DNA of 64,000 bases from Coriobacteriia bacterium (GTDB lineage: Bacteria > Actinomycetota > Coriobacteriia > Coriobacteriales > UBA8131): positions 87,177 through 151,176 of the forward strand of contig WRHU01000005.1 of NCBI GenBank assembly GCA_009783085.1, in the 5' to 3' direction. The notes beneath the pieces were generated by a model that was not told the origin of the DNA, did no database searches, and was given only the letters and a program-made list of their open reading frames with translations. Position 1 is the stretch's first letter; each line of letters opens with the position of its first letter. The translations under genes and the position numbers were made by a program. Positions 53,858 to 60,975 of the stretch are shown piece by piece.

Positions 53858-54214
53858 TTATTTAAGACGGGAAACAAGGAACTTAACTTCGTTGAGCGGT
53901 TCGCCGAGTTCGTGTTCGAGCCTGAGGCGATAATACTCCTGCTGCATTCTGAGCTCGGCTGCCCACGGAGAGCTTTCCACATACACAATGACGGTTCTTT
54001 TTTGTGTATTTTTGATGTGCTCTTTGTGTTTGCTAAACATGATTTTGCAGACGTGTTTTTTTATTTGAGGAGCGGCAACTGCCTCCCATGCACGCTGAAG
54101 TTTGAAGCCTTGGTGGGTTTTTTGGGGCAGAGCGTGGTTAACGCAGCGCTGGATTGCGTCGTCAAGCGTAAGGGCTTCTTTTGCACGGAGGTGGTTGTCT
54201 TTGGGTTTATACAT
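53858..54214 (-). CDS. DUF721 / DciA-like protein
   Basis: 118 residues from ATG 54214 (overlap of 8 bp with recF). The 288-residue track ORF is the same frame extended through recF. KLQRAWEAVAAPQIKKHVCKI...TVIVYVESSPWAAELRMQQEYYRLRLEHELGE carries the family pattern W..vvG..ia.ht.p......L.V.v.ss.Wa.qL. By family knowledge it is associated with loading the replicative helicase, and the recF neighbourhood is typical in Actinobacteria. Confidence 0.85.
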   Translation of the reverse strand: MYKPKDNHLRAKEALTLDDAIQRCVNHALPQKTHQGFKLQRAWEAVAAPQIKKHVCKIMFSKHKEHIKNTQKRTVIVYVESSPWAAELRMQQEYYRLRLEHELGEPLNEVKFLVSRLK

Positions 54215-55622
54215 GAGGCGCTGCCTTGGTTTTTGTTGATGCCTGAGATTTTGTTTTGACGGCGGGTTTGGTAGCTGGCTTTTTGGCTGCCGTTCGTTTT
54301 GTCGCTGTTGTCTTAGCAGCTGGCTTTTTTCTCGTGGTTTTCTTGGGCGCAGGTACAGTTTCTTTGAGCGCTCCCCCACTACCGTCAAGCGGCAGCTGAA
54401 TAATCTGCGCTTCTTTGAGAACCTTCTCGTCAAAATAGCTGAGATTGGTAGTGGTAATAAAGGTCTGCGTGCCCGTGCCAATAAGCTCAAGGAGCAAACG
54501 GCGGCGTTTCTCGTCAAGTTCCGACATAACGTCGTCGAGCAGCAAAAGCGGGTCGGTGCCGGTAAGCTCACGTAAAATCTCAACCTCGGCGATTTTGAGG
54601 GCAAGTGCCAAGGAGCGTTGCTGTCCTTGCGAGCCAAAACGGCGTGCGTCATTGCCGTCGATAAAAAAGCGTATCTCGTCGCGGTGCGGACCAATGAGCG
54701 CCCTGCGCGAGCGAGCCTCTGCAAAGTGATGTTTTTCGAGCAGGCTTACAAAGTGCTCTTCGCTGGTTTGGTTGTTGGTTTGCCTGTTATCTTGCAGAGT
54801 TTGCTCTGCTCGTTTTTCGCCGTTTTCTTCAAAAAAAGCAGGTTGCGGAGCCTTATCCTCTGCGCCTAGTTCAACTTCGGGCAACGCCCCCTCGCTGCTC
54901 GAGTAGCTCTCGGGCCGCTCGTTTTTTTCATCAAGCAGCTGCCAGGAGGGAACATACTCGGCACTAAAACTTTCTTTGGGAGCAATTTGATGATACACCT
55001 CTGCCGCTTTTTCTCTCATTTTTTCAAAGAGTGAACGGCGGTGTTCCAACAAGGAACTGCCAAGTTTTGCAAGGTTGCGATTCCACGAGGCAAGAATATG
55101 TTGGTCGGTGTATCCGTCGCGCAAAAGAGCGTTTTTTTGCTTGACCACCCGGGTGTATTCTTGCTTGATGTCAACAAAAGTACGCGAGAGTTGGCAACCA
55201 AGATTGTCAATACAAAGCCGCCGAAACTCGGCAGGACCTTGGATAATTTGTAGATCGCTGGGGGTAAATAACACCGCCGGCAACAAACCTAACAAGTCGC
55301 GTGTTTTTTTTGGTTTCTCGTTGTACTGATAAAAGCGTTTGTTGTCTTTAATTTCAAGACTTGTGTTGTTCTCGCAGCCGTTTGCCTCATACACCAAGCT
55401 TATGTGCGCTTGTTCCTCCCCTTTTTGCACTACGTCGCGCCAGGCGGGTTTTCTAAAAGAATCCATGGTGCTCAGCAGCTGGATACCTTCAATGATGTTT
55501 GTTTTGCCCAGCGCATTATCACCCACAATAATGACAAGGCGGGCAAGCTCACCAAGCTCGAGTTTTGAATAATTTCGAAAACGAGAAAACTCGATAGATT
55601 TTACGGCAACACTTTTATTCAT
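54207..55622 (-). CDS. recF: DNA replication and repair protein RecF, with insert and H1-like tail
   Basis: 471 residues, about 100 more than usual. ABC-type core: RFRNYSKLELGE, VGDNALGKTNIIEGIQLLST (Walker A), LFTPSDLQIIQGPAEFRRLCID, RRALIGPHRDEIRFFIDGN, SQGQQRSLALALKIAEVE (signature) and LLLDDVMSELDEKRR (Walker B). Two additions: an acidic/polar insert at about 225-305 (SYSSSEGALPEVELGAEDKA), and a basic C-terminal tail (TRKKPAAKTTATKRTAAKKP), like histone H1. Starts 13 bp after dnaN. Confidence 0.94.
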   Translation of the reverse strand: MNKSVAVKSIEFSRFRNYSKLELGELARLVIIVGDNALGKTNIIEGIQLLSTMDSFRKPAWRDVVQKGEEQAHISLVYEANGCENNTSLEIKDNKRFYQYNEKPKKTRDLLGLLPAVLFTPSDLQIIQGPAEFRRLCIDNLGCQLSRTFVDIKQEYTRVVKQKNALLRDGYTDQHILASWNRNLAKLGSSLLEHRRSLFEKMREKAAEVYHQIAPKESFSAEYVPSWQLLDEKNERPESYSSSEGALPEVELGAEDKAPQPAFFEENGEKRAEQTLQDNRQTNNQTSEEHFVSLLEKHHFAEARSRRALIGPHRDEIRFFIDGNDARRFGSQGQQRSLALALKIAEVEILRELTGTDPLLLLDDVMSELDEKRRRLLLELIGTGTQTFITTTNLSYFDEKVLKEAQIIQLPLDGSGGALKETVPAPKKTTRKKPAAKTTATKRTAAKKPATKPAVKTKSQASTKTKAAPHV

Positions 55623-55635
55623 GCTTTTGTTCGTA

Positions 55636-56736
55636 CTAATCGAGGCGAACGGGCATGGTTAAGTAGAAGTAGTAGTCGCTGTCTATGGTTTTGAAAATAC
55701 CCGGCTTGAGCGAGGTTTGCGCTTCAAACAACACTTCATCGGTATCTATGGCAGCAAGCCCATCCATGATGTATTGATGATTAAAGCCTATCTCAAGACC
55801 CTCCCCTTCTACCGTAGCATTAAGTTTTTCTGCCGATGAACCAACTTCTTGCGACTGAGTGGTTATTTCTAACAACTGCCCGTCGGGATCAACAATAAAA
55901 CGCACCGACCCGTGGGCTTGGGCAAGTACGGCAGCGCGGCGCACAGCTTCATACAACTCAGCAGTGTTGAGCTTTACCGAAACTAAGCGTTGCTGCGGAA
56001 TAATTTGCTCGTAGTTAGGATAACTGCCCTCGATTTTTCTTGAAACAAAGGTGGTTGTTCCAAACTTAAAGAGTATTTGATTTTCTGATTCACCAATGAG
56101 GAGTTTTTCTTCCTCGTTGGCAAGACGGCTTACTTCTTCAAAAATAGCGCCGGGAACAATGAGATCAAGCGTTTCACCTAAAGCTTCGTCAAGATTAAAA
56201 CGCGAAACAGCCAAACGGTAGGAATCGGTTGCAACAAGCTGGAGCGTTTTTTCCTCAGCTTTGAGATAAATGCCCGTTAACACCGCCCGAGATTCATCGC
56301 GCGACACCGCTTTATATACCTTTTTGACTGCTTCTGCCACCACTTTTGTGGGAAGTTGCAGTGAGCGCTCCGTAACAATACTCGGAAAACTGGGGTAGTC
56401 AACGGGATCCATAGTGGTAATACTAAAAGAGGAATCCAGGCAGGTAATAAGGAGGGTATTATCTTTTTGTTCCAGTGTTATGGCTGCCTCGGGCAAACTT
56501 TTGATGATGTCACTAAAAAGTTTGCCAGGAACAACCGTAGCACCGCGTTGTTCAATAAGTGCTTCTGCAATATGTTTTATAGATATTTCAAGATCGGTTG
56601 TTTGAAATATAACACCATCGATAGTTGTTTCGATATAGATGCCAGAAAAAACGGGAAGCGTTGAGCGCGACGACATTCCCTTAGAAACAACGTTGATAAT
56701 TTGGAGGAGCCTATTTTTTTCAATTACAAATCTCAT
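55636..56736 (-). CDS. dnaN: DNA polymerase III subunit beta (sliding clamp)
   Basis: 366 residues, usual length. Three clamp domains: MRFVIEKNRLLQIINVVSKG, STLPVFSGIYIETT, IIKSLPEAAITLEQKDNTLLI, LQLVATDSYRLAVSRFNLDE and a C-terminal YYFYLTMPVRLD, matching the family end (y.yl.mPmrl). ATG 56736 after GGAAGTGAAGAACC. Confidence 0.97.
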   Translation of the reverse strand: MRFVIEKNRLLQIINVVSKGMSSRSTLPVFSGIYIETTIDGVIFQTTDLEISIKHIAEALIEQRGATVVPGKLFSDIIKSLPEAAITLEQKDNTLLITCLDSSFSITTMDPVDYPSFPSIVTERSLQLPTKVVAEAVKKVYKAVSRDESRAVLTGIYLKAEEKTLQLVATDSYRLAVSRFNLDEALGETLDLIVPGAIFEEVSRLANEEEKLLIGESENQILFKFGTTTFVSRKIEGSYPNYEQIIPQQRLVSVKLNTAELYEAVRRAAVLAQAHGSVRFIVDPDGQLLEITTQSQEVGSSAEKLNATVEGEGLEIGFNHQYIMDGLAAIDTDEVLFEAQTSLKPGIFKTIDSDYYFYLTMPVRLD

Positions 56737-57113: not shown

Positions 57114-58790
57114 TTAATTCATAATTAACTCCGCGAGGCGTTCAATTTCAATTTTACGGTTGATGTCTTTCATTATTTTTTGTTCAATGTTGCGGTGTGC
57201 ATAAAGGACCGAGGTATGGTCTTTTCCGCCAAACATTTTTCCTATTTCTGGGAAAGATTTAGTGGTAAGACGGCGTGAAAGATACATGGCAACTTGACGG
57301 GGGAACGAGATATTTTTTGAGCGACGTGAGCCCACCATGTCGGCATGACTGATGCCATAGTGATTTTCAACGACGCGCTGAATTGAGCGCACGTCAATTT
57401 GTTTGAGGTCGTTATGGAGAAAAACGGTGCCGACGATTTGTTCTGCTGCTTCTATGGTAATTTGTGTGTTTTTCTCGTCGCCTGCGTGATGTGCAATGTA
57501 ACCAACAATGGTTGAAGTTGCGCCTTCAAGTTCGCGGATATTTGAGCTTGAAAGTCCAATGATATGGTCGGCGACCTCTTGAGGAACGTTAATCTCGTCA
57601 ACGCCAAACTGATAACAGTAGTATTTGATAAGGTTGTTAAAGATAGCCATTTTCATCTCAAAGCTTGGTGGTTGGATTCCTGCGGTAAGGCCTTGGGCAA
57701 AACGGCTTGCAAAACGCTCATCCAAATTAAGCTCGTTAGGAGCGCGGTCTGCACTGAGAACAATTTGTTTGTGCTGGGCAATAAAGAGGTTAAAAATGTC
57801 AAAGAGTGCGTTGGTGGTTGATTCTTTGCCCTCGAGGTATTGGACATCATCTAATAAGAGTACGTCGCACATGTGGTATTTGATGCGAAAGTCGGTGAGG
57901 TCTTTGTTAATAGAAGCCATCGCTGAGGTAAAGTCGTTGACGAACTCTGAGGTTTGAGCAAAGACGACTTTGCGCTCAGGGTGATAGCGGTTGATGTAAT
58001 CTTTGATGGCGAGCAAGAGGTGCGTTTTACCCAAACCTGAACGCCCATATATAAAGAGTGGATTAAAGCGCAAGCCGGGCATTTCTGCCACCCCTTGAGA
58101 AGCTGAGAAAGCAAAGTCGTTGCTTGACCCAACAATGTAGGTGTCAAAAGTTTTCTCGCTGTGGGACGCTTGGGCTGGGGTTGCTTGGGTTTGCTGGGCT
58201 TGTTGTTGTTGTGATCGCTGCGTTTGTTGAGATTGTTGTGTGCCCTGAGTTTCTTGGCGTGCAGCGGACAAGGCAGAAGTAACCGAGGGCATGTCGGCAG
58301 GGATATCAACGGGGGTGTTGGTTGGCGTGCTTATAGGCATGGCGGCGGGTGCAGTGGTATTTTGCTGTGCCGGTTGCGGTGTTTGTGTTGGTTGCGCCTG
58401 TTGTATTGGTTGCTGAGCTGCCGGTTGTTGTTGAACCGGCTGCTGATTTTGCTCGGCAAGTTGCGCTGCTTGCTGGGCAGCTTGTTGTTGCGCCTGCTGT
58501 TGAATAGCAGAAGGCGCTGGCATCGACGCCTCATCTAAAATGACGATGTTGATGTTTCTTTGCGAGCCAAGCGTGCTAACAATCGCCTCGTCAATAAATG
58601 AAAGATACCGAGCCTCAATCCATTGCTTTGCAAACGCAAGCTCAGTTACCACCGTTAGAGTTGTTTCGTCCAAGTCTTGCGGAACAAGGTAGGAAAGATA
58701 CGCCTCGGCGGCGGGGTTATTGGTTTCTTGTCGGCCCAAAAGGTTTTTGTAAACCTGGTCCCACAAGGTGGTTGCTTCAAGCTGTCCCAT
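57114..58790 (-). CDS. dnaA: Chromosomal replication initiator DnaA
   Basis: 558 residues, about 100 above the usual size. Domain I (1-85, LWDQVYKNLLGRQ...). Domain II (about 90-215) is a Gln/Pro/Ala/Thr-rich linker (QQQAQQQAAQQAAQLAEQNQ). Domain III AAA+: NPLFIYGRSGLGKTHLLLAI (Walker A), CDVLLLDDVQYLEGK (Walker B), DERFASRFAQGL (arginine finger region). Domain IV: SRRSKNISFPRQVAMYLSRR...FGGKDHTSVLYAHRNI for DnaA-box binding. ATG 58790 after AAAGGCGCGTTAC. Confidence 0.97.
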   Translation of the reverse strand: MGQLEATTLWDQVYKNLLGRQETNNPAAEAYLSYLVPQDLDETTLTVVTELAFAKQWIEARYLSFIDEAIVSTLGSQRNINIVILDEASMPAPSAIQQQAQQQAAQQAAQLAEQNQQPVQQQPAAQQPIQQAQPTQTPQPAQQNTTAPAAMPISTPTNTPVDIPADMPSVTSALSAARQETQGTQQSQQTQRSQQQQAQQTQATPAQASHSEKTFDTYIVGSSNDFAFSASQGVAEMPGLRFNPLFIYGRSGLGKTHLLLAIKDYINRYHPERKVVFAQTSEFVNDFTSAMASINKDLTDFRIKYHMCDVLLLDDVQYLEGKESTTNALFDIFNLFIAQHKQIVLSADRAPNELNLDERFASRFAQGLTAGIQPPSFEMKMAIFNNLIKYYCYQFGVDEINVPQEVADHIIGLSSSNIRELEGATSTIVGYIAHHAGDEKNTQITIEAAEQIVGTVFLHNDLKQIDVRSIQRVVENHYGISHADMVGSRRSKNISFPRQVAMYLSRRLTTKSFPEIGKMFGGKDHTSVLYAHRNIEQKIMKDINRKIEIERLAELIMN

Positions 58791-58890: not shown

Positions 58891-59898
58891 TTATGTGTGC
58901 AAGCTCTGCGCTTGGATATACGCAAGCCCGCTGTTTGAGAGAATCCGTTTTTTACTTGCCGAAGTTTCTACCAGACCGAGCTGCTCAAGCCGCTGCAGCA
59001 GACGGGTTGCCGTTGGAGCACTGACCCCGAGGGGCTCGACTAAATCTCCCGAACCAACCGTTCCTTCTTGATACAGGAGAAAGAGTGCTTTTTCTTCTCG
59101 CTTTTTAAGCTGGATGGGAGGAATATGAGTTGGGGTGGGGGGTGAAGCCGGGGGTGAAGCTTGAGGAGGCATTGCTTGCAGGGCTGCTTGTGGTGTTGCT
59201 TGGAGCGCTGCTGCTGCGTGCGGTGCGACGGTTGTTGCTGTCGCATTTGGGGCAACGGCTGTTGCAGTAGTGCTGGGCGCAACAACTCCTGTTGCTGTGC
59301 TCGGCACAACGGGCACAACCGACAAGGTGATAACCGTTCCGTCAACAGCATTGTCATCAACGGTGAGAAACCCGTCTGAGCGTCCCAGATATTCGCAGAC
59401 GATAGGAAAGCCTGAGCCAACCCCTCTAATATACTGCTTCATGCTTGTGGTAGCCGAACTAATGCCGGGCTGCAAAACGAGATCTTTTTTCTCGATACCC
59501 GGGCCTTGGTCGGCAAAACGAACCGTGTTGCCGCCGTTGAGAACCGACACCGTACATTCTTTGAAATCGGCGTGAATAAAGTTTTCGGCGATTTCTCGAA
59601 TAACCGTGTAGGGAAGGCTCCCCCCTTGCGTGCGTGCATTTTCATAGGTGGTAACGGTGATGTCCTCGATGAACTCAGGAATCGCCGTTGGTTGTATGTC
59701 AATAATGCGGGGAGAGGAGAGCAGGTCGTCGTAGACGGCGACGCGGGCAGAGATTGCCGTTGCGGTTTCTGCGCTTCTATCGTTTTTTGTGGTGCTGGTG
59801 TTATCCGTGATAGTGGTGCTTTCTGCAACTTCTGCAACTTCTGCAACTTCTGCAACGTTGTTTTCGATGGTCGCTTCGCTCTGATGAGCAACAGTCAT
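58891..59898 (-). CDS. GHKL ATPase - winged-helix protein next to oriC, function unknown
   Basis: 335 residues; ATG 59898 after GAGGAGCC. N-terminal repeat AEVAEVAEVAES (from a 9-bp DNA repeat), then an HATPase_c domain (about 65-200): N box REIAENFIHADF, FADQGPGIEKKDL (G1), GISSAT and YIRGVGSGFPIVCEYLGRS (G2). A Thr/Ala/Pro-rich linker (about 200-265) leads to a C-terminal winged helix, KALFLLYQEGTVGSGDLVEP...SAPTATRLLQRLEQLGLVE, MarR-like. No His kinase dimer domain is present. Divergently placed at the origin, 100 bp upstream of dnaA in the same direction. A role in controlling initiation or dnaA expression is only a guess. Confidence 0.75.
   Translation of the reverse strand: MTVAHQSEATIENNVAEVAEVAEVAESTTITDNTSTTKNDRSAETATAISARVAVYDDLLSSPRIIDIQPTAIPEFIEDITVTTYENARTQGGSLPYTVIREIAENFIHADFKECTVSVLNGGNTVRFADQGPGIEKKDLVLQPGISSATTSMKQYIRGVGSGFPIVCEYLGRSDGFLTVDDNAVDGTVITLSVVPVVPSTATGVVAPSTTATAVAPNATATTVAPHAAAALQATPQAALQAMPPQASPPASPPTPTHIPPIQLKKREEKALFLLYQEGTVGSGDLVEPLGVSAPTATRLLQRLEQLGLVETSASKKRILSNSGLAYIQAQSLHT
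59820..59861. repeat. 9-bp tandem repeat (ACTTCTGCA), four to five copies
   Basis: TTCTGCAACTTCTGCAACTT: an intragenic repeat encoding EVAEVAEVAE near the start of the GHKL protein. Confidence 0.85.
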
Positions 59899-60480
59899 GG
59901 CTCCTCCTCTCTGAAAGAAAAAGTGAAATCAACAGGTTTTTCCACAGAAACGAAAGTAAAAAGTGGAAAACTCTGTAAAATTTTCTTGATAAAACCCCTG
60001 AATAACCCCGCCTCCATAAATGCAGTGAAAACTGGTGAAAAAAAGACACGGGGATTTATCAGGGTGTTTTCGAATTTTTGCAAGTATTTCACAATTGTTG
60101 AAAAATGTGTGAAAAAATGAAATCTGGTGAAATTGTGTTGTGGATATTTGCATACATTTGGTGGGATATTTTTGTATCCTGTGTAAATTGCTCTTATTAA
60201 CAACACGATTTGCTTATTCTATGTTGTTAGACAAAACACAGATTAAGTTTTAGAAACTTCGTTGTTAAAAACTGATTCTATTCTCAAGGTTCTTTTGCAA
60301 AAGTGCAGATAAAAAGCACTTTTTATAAATAGTTAGGGTATGAATGATGCCACATTTTTTGAGCTTGTCAACAGGAAAAAATGTTCGTTTTTTTCGAGTT
60401 TTCCACAAGTCTTTTCTGTAATCATTCGGTTTTCCACATTTTCCACAGGCAAAAAAGTGAAATATAAAAAAATGTGAAAT
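59899..60480. other. Probable chromosomal origin (oriC)
   Basis: AT-rich, gene-free, between the dnaA side (minus) and rpmH side (plus). DnaA-box-like TTTTCCACA occurs at 59938-59946, 60399-60407, 60430-60438 and 60439-60447, with variants AGTGGAAAA (about 59960) and TGTGGATAT (about 60138). A series of GTGAAA motifs (for example GTGAAAACTGGTGAAAAAA) lies between. The last two boxes abut head to tail. Strand polarity of genes switches here. Confidence 0.8.
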
Positions 60481-60573
60481 TATTTTGACAATTTTACCTT
60501 TTCGCTCCCCTTTTTCAAATTATTTGAAAAATGAGGCGAAAAACAGGGAAAACTTGACAAAAATGCAGGCGAA

Positions 60574-60649
60574 CCGTTGGGTCGGCGGTATTACCCTTGA
60601 GTGGCAGCATAACCCTTGGGCCGGCAGCATGATCCTTGGTCTGGTAGCC
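60574..60649. repeat. Four-copy 19-20 bp tandem repeat
   Basis: CCGTTGGGTCGGCGGTATTA, CCCTTGAGTGGCAGCATAA, CCCTTGGGCCGGCAGCATGA, TCCTTGGTCTGGTAGCC. An iteron-like array just outside the AT-rich origin. Confidence 0.75.
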
Positions 60650-60707
60650 TCCCTCCCCCGCTCCGAAAGTAAATCCCAAAAAAATCCAAATAATTTGCGC
60701 TGCTCTG

Positions 60708-60737
60708 TTGACAAAACTACAGGAAAACCGATACAAT
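60708..60737 (+). promoter_or_regulatory. Promoter of rpmH-rnpA
   Basis: TTGACA, an 18-bp spacer and TACAAT, followed by a leader of about 230 bp to rpmH. Confidence 0.65.
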
Positions 60738-60975
60738 CTGGTGTTCGCACAAAAAGGTACTGCTTTTGTGTGCCTTGAGTGTGCGTAAGTGTGTGCTCGT
60801 ATGCGTGGCTGTGGGTGGCTTATGCAGAGCTGTGAGTGGGTGTTAGCCAGCAAAAATGCGTTGCGCGCACCGAAATGTTCGTTATGTTGTTGTAGGTTGG
60901 GTGGCCAAGCGGTGCTGCAAAAGCGCACCAAAACGCCAAGAAGCCTGCCTCACTATAAGACTAAAGGAATGAATG

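Follow-up and report, generated by a model that had tools for sequence, protein, structure and literature searches.

A GHKL ATPase fused to a winged helix lies beside dnaA and oriC in at least three bacterial phyla and is a candidate regulator of chromosome replication

GHKL proteins are recognized by the N, G1 and G2 boxes of their ATP site, and the N-box is assigned its role in Mg-ATP binding here by analogy with MutL, SpoIIAB and the histidine kinases. Typical histidine kinases start this box with an asparagine; SpoIIAB has two helices preceding the ATP lid. Among solved structures, the closest to the protein described here is DIP2311 of Corynebacterium diphtheriae (PDB 3lmm), which combines a GHKL domain with a winged helix (wHTH). 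We take DIP2311 to be of the COG2865 type, with an N-terminal AlbA_2/Schlafen-like domain, and we know of no report that places it at oriC. A review of origin-binding proteins names no such protein in the passages searched, and the words ‘winged’, ‘histidine’ and ‘MarR’ are absent from its text (PMC4285127). The relevant passages of a 100-genome actinobacterial survey put a DUF3566 gene close to oriC and contain no GHKL/wHTH gene (PMC4255298). We found no paper describing the gene in the open-licence literature, which leaves room for a mention elsewhere, and no curated family model describing its product. The preliminary description of this DNA knew of no regulator with such a layout: the literature searched holds none, but the domain pair itself has a precedent, since the structural search proposed there matches DIP2311 across both domains.

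The gene is a 335-codon open reading frame on the minus strand (58891-59898) of the window, the 64-kb stretch of DNA analysed here, and it encodes 335 amino acids. Conserved as it is in hundreds of genomes, it cannot be a chance reading frame and is a genuine gene. Two Pfam models match above their curated cut-offs: HATPase_c at residues 97-194 (E = 2e-6) and MarR (PF01047) at residues 270-315 (E = 4e-8). AlphaFold2 models both domains confidently, mostly with pLDDT >90, and leaves residues 1-45 and the linker (about 196-265) disordered. The GHKL (Bergerat-fold) domain spans residues 51-195 (59314-59748, minus strand), supported by HATPase_c, by pLDDT mostly >90 and by Foldseek matches to histidine-kinase CA domains. 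A low-complexity linker, residues 196-265 (59104-59313, minus strand; pLDDT mostly about 47-60), joins it to the winged-helix DNA-binding domain of residues 266-334 (58897-59103, minus strand), where pLDDT is about 95 over most of the length. This domain is of MarR type in the window protein, and other members score better as TrmB/IclR-like; with ~70 residues attached to the GHKL domain, it differs from MarR proteins that stand alone and bring their own dimerisation helices. Pfam gives no match, at E up to 1, to a HisKA/DHp phosphoacceptor or sensor domain, nor to AlbA_2 or HATPase_c_4. The earlier picture of a histidine-kinase-like ATPase without phosphoacceptor domain, joined to a MarR-like domain, is thereby borne out.

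Over 97 sequences of the family, the sole invariant columns are E102, N106, H109, D130, G132, G134, G145, G159, G163, G176 and G187, and they take in the N, G1 and G2 boxes. The N-box, E102-xxx-N106-xx-H109, lies at 59572-59595; conservation and profile matches place the G1 box, D130-Q-G-P-G-I135, at 59494-59511 and the G2 box of the ATP lid, G159-V-G-S-G163, at 59410-59424, all on the minus strand. All 97 members match HATPase_c, and the window protein shows the GHKL signature of an N-box Asn with G1 DxGxG and G2 GxGxG motifs on a Bergerat fold. Because these residues are invariant and the fold matches are histidine-kinase CA domains, Mg-ATP binding by the GHKL domain is strongly predicted; ATP hydrolysis is possible.

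The same domain could be read as a SpoIIAB/RsbW-like anti-factor or kinase, which would bind and perhaps phosphorylate a partner, DnaA being the obvious candidate, while the winged helix merely localises it. We judge this distinctly improbable. Histidine-kinase CA domains are the better structural match, the DNA-binding domain is always attached, and no partner-switch gene lies beside the gene among the marker genes mapped. The resemblance consists in profile matches to the anti-sigma F factor SpoIIAB (1l0o, 1th8; E about 2-5e-4), in the invariant glutamate at the N-box position, in two helices that precede the lid in the AlphaFold2 model as they do in SpoIIAB, and in matches of the curated SpoIIAB model TIGR01925 to 14 of 22 members, all below its cut-off (24.8 bits against 135 for the member at L063).

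In the window, the gene order is rpmH - oriC - GHKL/wHTH - dnaA - dnaN - recF. The GHKL/wHTH gene is the first before dnaA (57114-58790), dnaN (55636-56736) and recF (54207-55622), all on the minus strand, with a gap of 100 nt to dnaA. On its other side, rpmH starts at 60973 on the plus strand; rpmH, rnpA, yidC and jag are all on the strand opposite the GHKL gene. The AT-rich intergenic region of 1.07 kb between them, oriC (59899-60972), has a GC content of 39%, compared with 51% for the window, falling to 32% in 60000-60560. It contains five DnaA boxes with at most one mismatch; the rest of the 64 kb has 9. These are TTTTCCACA at 59938-59946 (plus strand), about 40 nt before the start codon of the GHKL gene, ATATCCACA at 60139-60147 (minus strand), TTTTCCACA at 60399-60407 (plus strand) and two abutting copies of TTTTCCACA at 60430-60447 (plus strand). 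A variant DnaA-like box, TTTTCAACA, of the TTWTCAACA class enriched in oriC, is found at 60096-60104 (minus strand). No Rfam match to a conserved RNA was found in this region. With the DnaA-box cluster lying between the GHKL gene and rpmH, the gene does sit between dnaA and the origin, as first described. Elsewhere in the cluster, a long linker rich in Gln and Pro (58190-58530) separates the N-terminal domain of DnaA from the ATPase domain, and recF is followed by a DciA-domain open reading frame (53858-54724, minus strand) that overlaps the end of recF in a different frame and probably has its real start further downstream.

The family is present in at least three phyla. A search with the window protein finds a relative in 271 of 300 genomes from the class Coriobacteriia at E up to 1e-3, a count that may include a few weak hits to ordinary histidine kinases. 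A 22-sequence profile detects the family in 158 of 397 genomes of the window's phylum (E up to 1e-20), in 38 of 43 of a second phylum (with CSP1-3; NCBI Candidatus Sysuimicrobiota) and in 13 of 101 of a third, which carries the label Bacillota/Clostridia in its records. Each of ten genomes examined closely has a single full-length match of about 300 bits, as opposed to 30-50 bits for histidine kinases; a scan for the one motif ENL[IV]HA covered the best 80 of 189 relatives, and the family may be spread more widely. Phages gave no match, and plasmids and viral contigs one weak partial match each (37% covered for the plasmid); a mobile or phage origin was rejected. Membership of a defence system was also rejected: similarity of the winged helix to Csa3/CasR and the like was all that pointed to it.

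The position of the gene is kept along with its sequence. Of the 173 loci in which marker genes mapped both, 171 have it directly before dnaA and in the same direction (170 were scored so by script, and L200 proved adjacent on inspection; as some loci come from one genome, distinct genomes are somewhat fewer). Counted by genome, it is directly adjacent to dnaA in 65 of 70; in the other five, the genes stand at the ends of contigs or are split between contigs. The order is no different in 18 further loci, of which 11 belong to the third phylum. The two deviating loci, L196 (2977-3765) and L199 (2859-3593), belong to a single genus and may reflect one event: the GHKL gene is inverted and reads away from dnaA, and all DnaA boxes lie between the two genes, so that it is still beside oriC. 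Since the boxes separate the inverted gene from dnaA, these loci suggest linkage to the origin and not merely to the dnaA transcript. Where dnaN-recF or rpmH has been relocated (L015, L023, L025, L200 and L223), the GHKL gene stays with dnaA. In L015, L023, L025 and L223, dnaN, on the other strand, is found upstream of the GHKL gene, the usual dnaA-dnaN order being broken and the GHKL-dnaA linkage kept. Linkage to oriC and dnaA, as an oriC regulator should show, is thus a property of the family. The preliminary description had proposed synteny among relatives as a check, and separation from dnaA as the outcome that would speak against it; the linkage, kept over three phyla or replaced by adjacency to oriC, turned out far stronger and older than it had guessed.

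Such a place would also suit a local transcription factor with no direct role in the orisome, which would activate the dnaA operon or repress it, its own gene included, and would sense ATP/ADP or some other ligand through its GHKL domain. The gene is the first of the dnaA cluster, a short gap (100 nt) from dnaA, its winged helix is MarR/TrmB/IclR-like, and oriC overlaps the operon promoter. However, the L196 and L199 copies point away from the dnaA promoter and yet remain at oriC, and we found upstream of the gene no conserved operator-like palindrome of its own. We consider this explanation unlikely.

The winged helix is also retained across the 97 sequences, and the recognition-helix region is strongly conserved in distant members (STAYRDL-like), which suggests a conserved DNA site. 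In oriC, we found no binding motif of the protein's own beyond DnaA boxes, their variants, promoters and a LexA box. The words enriched upstream of the gene are DnaA boxes and their variant, promoter hexamers and, in basal Actinomycetota, a LexA-type palindrome. TTWTCAACA is enriched ~21-fold in oriC (105 occurrences in 81.5 kb; flanking DNA has 80 in 1296 kb). We discarded it as the protein's site: it occurs in 4 of 8 gene-less loci as well and is one letter off the DnaA box, and in these origins it is probably a variant DnaA box. The palindrome AAACAnnTGTTC was set aside because the same motif stands at the promoters of RecA-like and LexA-like genes, and we read it as a LexA box. In the form AAACAnnTGTTC or GAACAnnTGTTC, the LexA-type palindrome occurs in the rpmH-GHKL interval (oriC) of many basal Actinomycetota (L061, L062, L064, L095, L105, L116, L140, L149, L158, L162, L163, L168, L171, L173, L176 and L178), and also at promoters of RecA-like (L242, L253) and LexA-like (L254) genes. 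Given this shared palindrome, the origin or the dnaA operon may be under SOS control in those bacteria.

Eight loci (L181-L185 and L190-L192) lack the gene with rpmH, oriC and dnaA in place. No other full-length copy was found in their genomes, and the candidates for relocated copies were dismissed as matches of histidine-kinase level, scoring about 28-42 bits where true members reach about 300. Initiation can therefore proceed without the gene, which is not universally essential and is dispensable in some lineages; these lineages form a natural comparison group for its function. Losses with dnaA intact, together with the oriC motif that was not found, would fit a regulator of distant genes or of segregation and origin positioning, kept near oriC for dosage or for co-expression with dnaA. 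Linkage across three phyla, despite local inversions and rearrangements, nevertheless exceeds what co-expression usually preserves, and we hold such a role to be rather improbable.

The divergence of the gene is comparable to that of the neighbouring replication genes, with a mean p-distance of 0.59, next to 0.54 for dnaA, 0.65 for dnaN and 0.66 for recF. A tree of 73 members requires 4 changes of four taxonomic labels, where the minimum is 3, as expected for mainly vertical descent that follows species groups. Co-evolution with DnaA was tried by mirror-tree and abandoned: the partial r for GHKL-DnaA, with neighbours controlled, is 0.46, no higher than in the control pairs dnaN-yidC (0.46) and dnaA-yidC (0.41).

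We propose, with middling confidence, that the GHKL/wHTH protein, passed on by vertical descent, resides at oriC and regulates chromosome replication there as a nucleotide-dependent switch. In favour of this are the exclusive dnaA-adjacent position, kept after inversions and rearrangements; the spread over phyla, with a tree that follows taxonomy and a divergence like that of replication genes; and the invariant ATP-site residues, the retained winged helix and, weak partial matches apart, the absence of the gene from phages and plasmids. Against it count the lack of an own oriC motif, the losses with dnaA in place, a GHKL-DnaA correlation no higher than controls and the fact that operon position alone can mean shared expression. 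In such a switch, the GHKL domain would bind Mg-ATP, as its residues strongly predict. By analogy with other GHKL proteins, ATP binding or slow hydrolysis would close the lid, and lid closure could alter how the protein dimerises or where its tethered winged helix is placed. The winged helix would bind DNA in oriC or in the adjoining dnaA-operon promoter, and its binding may set both the readiness of the origin for DnaA assembly and the amount of DnaA.

A bolder version, possible though doubtful, makes the protein an ancient multi-phylum initiation factor, an ATP-switched GHKL protein on oriC that licenses or restrains DnaA. It could have escaped notice because, to our knowledge, the gene is missing from E. 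coli, B. subtilis, Streptomyces and Caulobacter. If true, the textbook origin run by DnaA alone would be incomplete for much of deep Actinomycetota and Sysuimicrobiota. More generally, the GHKL/wHTH protein probably helps control DNA replication. A single-copy origin gene for which we found no name, family model or paper, it is a strong candidate for an undescribed initiation control, because it lies beside dnaA over at least three phyla and combines an invariant ATP site with a DNA-binding domain. Coriobacteriia include many human gut and oral bacteria, and the gene bears on the timing of initiation in bacteria outside the model organisms.

How does it compare with known proteins? Foldseek aligns DIP2311 with it over about 270-300 columns, GHKL domain first and winged helix second; identity is nevertheless 12-18%, and a TM-score of 0.36-0.45 with an rmsd of 12-17 Å indicates that the domains are arranged differently. 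The AlbA_2 plus HATPase_c_4 pairing of COG2865/DIP2311-like proteins is missing, while GHKL-wHTH order and fold agree. The GHKL part finds its best match, in sequence and fold (Foldseek), in the CA domains of the histidine kinases CpxA, HK853 and KinB; unlike sensor histidine kinases, the protein has no HisKA/DHp domain or sensor, and a glutamate replaces their first N-box asparagine. With SpoIIAB/RsbW it shares a weak profile match and the character of a small cytosolic GHKL protein, but its winged helix is fused and its gene belongs to the dnaA cluster. The N-terminal GHKL ATPase of MutL has the same E-x-x-x-N box and a weak match over residues 96-148; here, a winged helix is present, and the transducer and endonuclease domains of MutL are not. 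Finally, the known oriC-binding regulators SeqA, Fis, IciA, AdpA, MtrA and HP1021, covered by the review cited above (PMC4285127), share the proposed place of action with the GHKL/wHTH protein and belong to other protein families.
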